A DNA stretch of 42,370 bases from Clostridiales bacterium (GTDB lineage Bacteria > Bacillota > Clostridia > Oscillospirales > Oscillospiraceae), in NCBI GenBank assembly GCA_029265975.1, contig JAJUGN010000013.1, positions 1-42,370 of the forward strand, written 5' to 3'. A program made the position numbers and the translations under genes. Positions 119 to 42,228 of the stretch are shown here, one piece after another (the stretch's first letter is position 1; every line of letters starts with the position of its first letter). Under the pieces are notes generated by a model that did no database searches, was not told the DNA's origin, and saw nothing but the letters and a program-made list of their open reading frames with translations.

Positions 119-152
119 AGCCCCGGCTCGAAAAAACGAGCCGGGGCTTTTA
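119..152 (+). terminator. Intrinsic terminator-like hairpin between repeat copy 1 and the end of glnN
   Basis: Twelve-base perfect arms AGCCCCGGCTCG and CGAGCCGGGGCT around six A residues, followed on the plus strand by TTTT. The T tail is on the plus strand, so it is best oriented for transcripts coming out of the repeat. It also sits 10-40 bases past the glnN stop and, with U residues only in the loop on that strand, could serve glnN less efficiently. Confidence 0.7.
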
Positions 153-12277: not shown

Positions 12278-12460
12278 ATCAATGCAATTTTTGCAGCATT
12301 TTATATGCATTTAACAAGCGCTTAAAGCCCAAAAAGAGCGGCGCTCGGCGTGAACAACTCTTATTTTTATAGCAACGCCTGTTTTAAGCGACTTATCGCT
12401 CAGTAAAATTAATAACAGAATACTGTTGCGCACGCCGGGGATTCCCGGCGGGCGTCAGAC
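12278..12460. other. Gene-free stretch between pyrG and repeat copy 2
   Basis: AT-rich at first, with no open frame that looks coding. At 12434-12450 it holds a hairpin CGCCGGG-GATT-CCCGGCG followed by GGCG. Almost the same hairpin recurs at 12654-12675 on the other side of the repeat copy. No strong T-tailed terminator for pyrG is evident close to its stop. Confidence 0.5.
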
Positions 12461-12461
12461 T

Positions 12462-12648
12462 GTCAAAAAAGCCCAAAGGGCTTTTTTGACAAGGGGGCTA
12501 AATGACGGCCGCTCTGCCGCGCCCGTCATGAGAGGTTTCATTTCCGACGTACACGCCGCCGGAAATGACAGATTTGACTTTGTTTCCGCCATTCGTGGCG
12601 GAAATTCTGCGAAGCTTTTTTGCTGTAAACAAGTTTTTCGACAAGCTG
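12462..12648 (+). repeat. Dispersed structured repeat, copy 2 (complete in the window)
   Basis: The part 12507-12648 matches the inverted copy at 42229-42370 with only a handful of differences, and 12530-12648 matches copy 1. It is a string of inverted repeats: GTCAAAAAAGCCC/GGGCTTTTTTGAC (12462-12490), ATGACGG/CCGTCAT (12502-12529), TCATTTCCG/CGGAAATGA (12538-12568) and TTTCCGCCA/TGGCGGAAA with a TTCG loop (about 12583-12604). The outer ends, TGTCAAAAA and TTTTTCGACA, form a short imperfect inverted repeat, as in small non-autonomous mobile elements. No coding potential recognised. Confidence 0.82.
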
Positions 12649-12649
12649 C

Positions 12650-12682
12650 CGCCCGCCGGGGATTTCCGGCGGGCGTTTTGAT
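12650..12682 (+). terminator. Terminator-like hairpin abutting repeat copy 2
   Basis: Arms CGCCCGCCGG and CCGGCGGGCG around GGATTT, followed by TTTTGATTT on the plus strand. It occupies the same place relative to the repeat as the hairpins at 119 and 42197, although its sequence is unrelated to them. Confidence 0.65.
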
Positions 12683-42196: not shown

Positions 42197-42228
42197 AAAC
42201 GGGGCGTTTCTTATGAAACGCCCCGTTT
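42197..42228. terminator. Terminator hairpin after the SLH gene, abutting repeat copy 3
   Basis: Fourteen-base perfect arms AAACGGGGCGTTTC and GAAACGCCCCGTTT around TTAT, 59 bases past the SLH stop. The better T-rich tail (GCATTTTTTATA) is on the minus strand, that is for transcription out of the repeat; on the plus strand the arm itself ends in TTT. Confidence 0.7.

Follow-up and report, generated by a model that had tools for sequence, protein, structure and literature searches.

The analysed window is an entire contig of 42,370 nucleotides (G000:C24:1-42370) from a 1.97 Mb genome that was assembled in 75 contigs and is 89% complete. It holds three copies of a repeat, approximately where the first-pass annotation had placed them (Table 1). 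The middle copy is complete and lies between pyrG, encoding CTP synthase, and mraZ. Copies 1 and 3 are incomplete because the contig begins and ends within the repeat. Gapless repeat pairs among the window copies are 92-98% alike. Other contigs of the assembly also tend to end within this element, which is a likely cause of the fragmentation of the assembly.

Table 1. Coordinates of the repeat copies, their parts and the adjoining hairpins in the window.
Feature	Position	Strand	Remarks
Copy 1, incomplete at contig end	1..118	+	
Hairpin, right end of copy 1	119..148	.	Terminator side of type III glutamine synthetase gene
Left copy of duplicated terminator hairpin	12429..12455	.	Abuts the element; folds foot to foot
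Complete 193-bp MITE	12456..12648	+	CAGACTGTC to GACAAGCTG; boundaries set by an alignment of many copies and their flanks
Left terminal inverted repeat CAGACTGTCAAAAA	12456..12469	+	Pattern search
Subterminal hairpin, left end, TGTCAAAAAAGCCC/GGGCTTTTTTGACA	12461..12491	+	Sequence reading and predicted fold
Conserved structured core, helices P1 and P2	12530..12615	-	Covariance model R1, L001:1569-1654 minus, 86.3 bits
Right terminal inverted repeat	12634..12648	-	CAGCTTGTCGAAAAA on minus strand
Right copy of duplicated hairpin	12650..12676	.	T run after it
Hairpin, right end of copy 3	42197..42228	.	Downstream of gene for 2023-aa SLH-domain protein
Copy 3, incomplete at contig end	42229..42370	-	

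A search of the whole genome, as the first-pass annotation had suggested, gave 132 matches to the core of the repeat with at most 3 mismatches (56 on the plus and 76 on the minus strand) and none to the reversed pattern. The alignment of copies set the exact boundaries of the element and uncovered duplicates of whole hairpins at them. The element ends with CAGACTGTCRAAAA on one side and with CAGCTTGTCGAAAAA, read inward, on the other; by pattern search, CAGACTGTCRAAAA has 66 exact sites in the genome. The 193-bp element is without coding capacity, and its left end is identical to that of the insertion sequence (IS) L173 over CAGACTGTCRAAAA. Bacterial IS-family MITEs are short, non-coding, present in high copy number and share their terminal inverted repeats with an autonomous IS. 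The 193-bp repeat is such a MITE and not a free-standing RNA gene. It differs from the usual bacterial MITEs in that its target duplication spans a whole hairpin and varies in length, and in that its interior core is kept across genera and is absent from eight autonomous IS loci.

It had been noted at first that one and the same end of each copy meets a terminator hairpin of unrelated sequence. The three hairpins quoted there are present and mutually unrelated, but both ends of the element meet one. At the complete copy, the two hairpins form a 27-bp direct repeat (score 22), of which the left copy is a diverged version. We aligned the 60 bases to the left of the element with the 60 bases to its right in 88 copies; 69 were window-type copies (66 from the window genome G000 and 3 from G003) and 19 came from the congener G004. 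The copies were taken from search loci and fetched stretches; the fetched loci held 101 G000 copies, and those truncated at a contig end or lacking a recognised end were left out before the count, as were 7 of the 26 G004 loci, which had no recognised right end. A matching hairpin was found at both ends in 75 of the 88 copies, in 73 as a direct repeat and in two as an inverted one only (L017 and L119). Direct duplicates with a score of at least 15 were observed in 55 of 69 window-type copies and in 18 of 19 G004 copies. When flanks of different copies were paired as a control (five re-pairings of the 69 window-type copies, direct orientation only), the mean score was 6.5 and the maximum 14, against the threshold of 15.

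The repeats abut the element with zero gap on either side in 61 of the 73 direct cases (manual count). Across these 73 cases the duplicates are 16-48 bp long (median 29) and their length correlates with the span of the hairpin (r 0.96), while the left hairpin copy folds nearly foot to foot, with a mean of 0.66 unpaired nucleotides per side. The target hairpins are of the terminator type. Hairpins of different sites have unrelated sequences, and the pair at any one site is nearly identical. The flank alignments thus show the element at the foot of a hairpin, with one whole hairpin left on each side after insertion.

A matching hairpin pair was absent in 13 of the 88 copies. L002 has only a 12-bp A+T-rich duplicate and L020 only a 6-bp match; alignment of the 60-base flanks gave no match for L008, L010, L031, L045, L064, L088 and L094, nor for L104, L129, L140 and the second copy in L097. 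Several of the unmatched copies bear good but different hairpins at their two ends. Some of these hairpins are common to two copies: the right hairpin of L008 is the left one of L091, the right hairpin of L010 is the left one of L073, and the left hairpin of L104 is the one to the right of window copy 1. This accounts in part for three of the 13 unmatched copies and not for the others. The 30 bases of the hairpin next to window copy 1 are also found to the left of the copy at G000:C49. In G004, roughly 0.7 kb separates the C49 left flank from the glutamine synthetase gene found beside window copy 1. Given this synteny, the window copy 1/L104 site was probably once a hairpin-element-hairpin arrangement, later split by recombination or by short-read misjoining. 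An inverted match was better than the direct one in L012, L017, L078, L119, marginally in L108, and also in the IS L173. Such cases are not predicted by simple duplication, and the inverted loops would need an extra step, perhaps a palindrome flipped during replication.

We compared the window genome with about 0.79 Mb of G004 sequence. Both flanks were present in G004 for 20 of the 101 G000 copies tested. At four of these orthologous sites (L014, L076, L088 and L113) a G004 element with like ends and a different interior occupies the same gap. Of the other 16 sites, 13 were inspected, and a single G004 hairpin was legible by eye in 12 of them (not in L067). The cleanest site is L102, where the G004 hairpin equals the left copy in G000, and the G000 element is flanked by this hairpin left and right; L072 and L025 come close to it in clarity. 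The single hairpin at orthologous sites therefore indicates that insertion duplicated the hairpin. In G004 the interval that corresponds to the window site, between the same pair of genes, contains one hairpin with a T run, of different sequence. The first-pass annotation had offered two readings. Insertion next to terminators is borne out by the duplicated target and the empty sites in the congener, and a non-autonomous mobile element is further supported by the terminal inverted repeats and by a transposase family with like ends. A small RNA unit with a replaceable terminator is not needed, since the three window hairpins are unrelated because they are target duplications.

We searched for the transposase partner through the element ends. 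Of 200 genomes of the family, 51 contain CAGACTGTCRAAAA; by manual sums it has about 350 sites and the reversed pattern 15. One of 20 fetched CAGACTGTCRAAAA sites carries a full IS (L173, the same as L187), which is 1522 bp long, encodes a 484-aa transposase and has the ends CAGACTGTCGAAAA/TCTTCGACAGTCTG. The L187 transposase belongs to the IS1182 family (NF033551, 385.9 bits, cut-off 270), and PF13751, PF01609 and PF05598 were matched in L173. This IS lies between two hairpin copies with loops inverted relative to each other. The IS L189 (1496 bp; NF033551, 385.1 bits, cut-off 270; ends CAGTTTGTCAAAAA/TTTTTGACAAACTG) is flanked on each side by a perfect 31-bp hairpin. L187 and L189 are full ISs with like ends between hairpin duplicates, an arrangement seen at IS1182-family transposase genes in G092 and G143. 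The protein search for the transposase, which brought up L189, matched 17 of 120 family genomes at 1e-20.

A matching hairpin pair was absent at the autonomous ISs L188, L190 and L205; the two ends of L190 and of L205 meet different hairpins, and L188 meets a hairpin at one end only. The transposase search of the window's own genome gave no match in the 89% complete assembly, so this genome may have lost the partner IS, or the assembly may miss it. A distant IS1182 subfamily (L192-L195, L206, L209 and L211) has ends near GGACCTGTTGACAAAG. None of its seven loci had a hairpin duplicate within 320 bases of the gene; hairpin duplication is therefore not an IS1182-wide trait.

Hairpin duplicates were also found at MITEs of other genera. 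With strict end patterns, 8 of 43 further loci showed them directly at the MITE ends, in G002, G028, G092, G105, G112, G170, G197 and G219. A pattern-free search around core matches found hairpin duplicates in 8 of 30 loci, namely L276, L297 (window genome), L278 (G026), L279, L300 (G090), L282 (G170), L283 (G075) and L292. Loci without duplicates are the majority in both searches, but they are not strong negatives.

The core in the interior of the element reads, on the minus strand, as a CUCGCAGAGUU-like sequence, P1, a linker near AAAGUCAAAUCUGU, P2 with a loop near CGUGUAC, and ACUUCUC. Its predicted fold is very stable (z -6.1 on the minus and -4.4 on the plus strand). We made a MAFFT alignment without structure from 17 hand-picked sequences of 13 genomes. 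This structure-blind alignment has 19 pairs, and the covariance test that had been proposed for the hairpin arms found compensatory double changes in 14 of them. Paired cells made up 93.8%, compared with 73.0% after shuffling and at most 60.9% with slid partners, and the covariation score was 0.563, compared with 0.191 and at most 0.165, respectively. In the model-fitted alignment of 69 matches, which leans to the structure by construction and includes 41 matches with mutual identities below 85%, each of the 19 pairs shows one or more double changes. G-U pairs outnumber A-C pairs by 38 to 5, and by 14 to 5 without one wobble-rich pair; this excess mildly favours a function of the minus strand.

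The covariance model was run on 197 genomes of the order, from 111 genera; at 1e-5 it matched 21 genomes in 12 genera, and nine genomes have at least 22 core matches each. No Rfam family scored above its gathering score in the window or in 14 loci, and a comparison of 9 further loci gave one T-box in L299, outside the core. For copy 2, the matches from a lax Rfam search were dismissed, all being far below the gathering scores, and a loose regular expression for the core was discarded because its 2458 strings were mostly unrelated. Our literature search on the core found no publication. Where the neighbouring genes are in tandem, the core is antisense to them in 17 of 24 copies, an orientation which leaves read-through expression of the core unsupported. 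There were no core matches in eight autonomous IS loci, so the core does not come from the ISs seen here, and its derivation from the autonomous IS was rejected. Among nine f7 loci of G042, G229 and G247, eight have the core without IS1182-type ends or hairpin duplicates. The loci L273, L294, L274, L295, L275, L296, L046 and L053 of these genomes carry a high-copy core in another family of the order, where it starts with AGC/CTCGCAGAG and is followed by further hairpin modules. A shortened copy in the window genome (L131, G000:C47:23601) is without the P1-P2 core and has kept both ends and the matching hairpins, which suggests that the core may not be required for transposition.

The core may represent a structured RNA or an ssDNA motif that has yet to be described. 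As an alternative to selection on RNA, template switching may keep the arms of a DNA palindrome matched; the conserved linkers and loop argue against this as the whole story. Of the structured RNA considered in the first-pass annotation, an altered version remains: an interior core that covaries and is conserved across genera. For further work the core offers a candidate RNA motif, for which a covariance model is at hand.

We put a probability of about 0.88 on the reading that the MITE is moved in trans by an IS1182-family transposase, with duplication of a whole host hairpin, and that its interior holds a conserved structured core. The responsible transposase would belong to an IS1182 subfamily with ends like CAGNNTGTCRAAAA. 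The target is probably recognised as a structure, such as an extruded cruciform or a four-way junction. The ends of the element would be transferred to the 5' feet of the opposed stem-loops, and repair synthesis would then complete the duplication of the whole hairpin. The feet are neighbours in a cruciform and the joining sites are variably spaced in B-DNA, which would explain duplicates of 16-48 bp that span the hairpin. The host gene would keep its terminator because the hairpin and the T run persist on one side, and a spared terminator would permit more than 100 copies at low cost. In DDE transposons the length of the target duplication is usually set by the transposase; here it appears to be set by the target's own structure. 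Comparison of sequences supports a hairpin-duplicating MITE of the IS1182 type well; the chemistry, the recognition of a cruciform and any function as an RNA are inferred.

Three other explanations have to be weighed against transposition by an IS1182-family enzyme. Tandem terminator hairpins could have existed beforehand, with the element inserted between them, and the several unmatched copies with a different hairpin at each end would fit this. It is contradicted at the clearest orthologous sites, L102, L072 and L025, where G004 has a single hairpin, and by hairpin copies which are near identical within a site and unrelated between sites; we give it hardly any credence. Duplication along B-DNA, replicative or with a fixed stagger, would need hairpins only as intergenic terminators that tolerate insertion. 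The element is indeed intergenic in the 63 copies with called flanking genes, and selection would purge insertions into genes. Such a process would be expected to give a near-constant length and a random phase, whereas the observed length tracks the hairpin from foot to foot over 16-48 bp (r 0.96), which makes it very unlikely. Equally improbable is a structured small RNA gene that ends at any handy terminator and was spread by recombination rather than transposition. The covariation of the core, its conservation across genera and its very stable predicted fold on both strands would suit such a gene, yet it leaves the terminal inverted repeats, the identical flanking hairpins and the empty sites unexplained, and the antisense position of the core in tandem contexts also speaks against it.

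The targeting of stem-loops and terminators is known from IS1182 relatives in the available text of PMC5678879 and PMC4923244. As described there, the staphylococcal IS1272 and TnSha1 resemble our element in belonging to the IS1182 family and in using stem-loop targets without a consensus, many of them terminators, and their authors regard the target as recognised by structure. They delete or replace the stem-loop and leave no target duplication (same sources), whereas the present MITE duplicates the whole stem-loop, which is kept on both sides. Duplication of the whole hairpin is drawn in the same text as a possibility (pathway b, Fig. 13 of PMC5678879); a length set by the target is, in the available part of that paper, an outcome drawn and not demonstrated for stem-loop-targeting IS1182 transposases. 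According to the accessible portion of PMC12056078, target duplication accompanies the action of IS1182-related transposases in some cases and not in others, and these enzymes may recognise a DNA structure. IS elements that target REPs (PMC1525189) likewise use palindromic targets, but REPs are a repeated sequence family, in contrast to the mutually unrelated target hairpins of the MITE. IS1182 elements are over-represented between convergent genes in the part of PMC9208149 available, and convergent gaps hold 30 of our 63 copies with called neighbours.

The literature search gave no report of whole-hairpin duplication, and insertion-sequence reviews may mention it. Relative to the published IS1182 relatives, whole-hairpin duplication is new and the targeting of stem-loops is not. 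IS1202-type elements, which have another transposase group, resemble the present MITE in their long target duplications (more than 20 bp) and differ in that these are not defined by a hairpin.

With over 70 natural examples and a pair of full-length ISs, the cruciform-target model can be tested directly, and the element offers a natural test case for transposition that reads the shape of DNA instead of its sequence. It also suggests how more than 100 copies of an element can accumulate in 2 Mb with genes, and probably terminators, left intact. Tentatively, and with more doubt than confidence, we consider that structure-reading, terminator-duplicating transposition and a conserved RNA cargo absent from Rfam form one unit that has spread through one order. 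If true, RNA cargo would be present at tens to more than 100 copies per genome in one bacterial order, and an element flanked on either side by a copy of the host's terminator would invariably find a terminator in place next to it.

The congener also carries MITEs of its own. In G004 (L137-L162) we found at least two families, of about 174 and 182 bp, with like ends and different interiors, and longer forms near 238 and 286 bp. Solitary element ends adjoin single hairpins at L142, L144 and the L060 site (G004:C7), the last with an apparent stub of an element end beside the hairpin. This suggests that the solitary ends are remnants of decay or excision.
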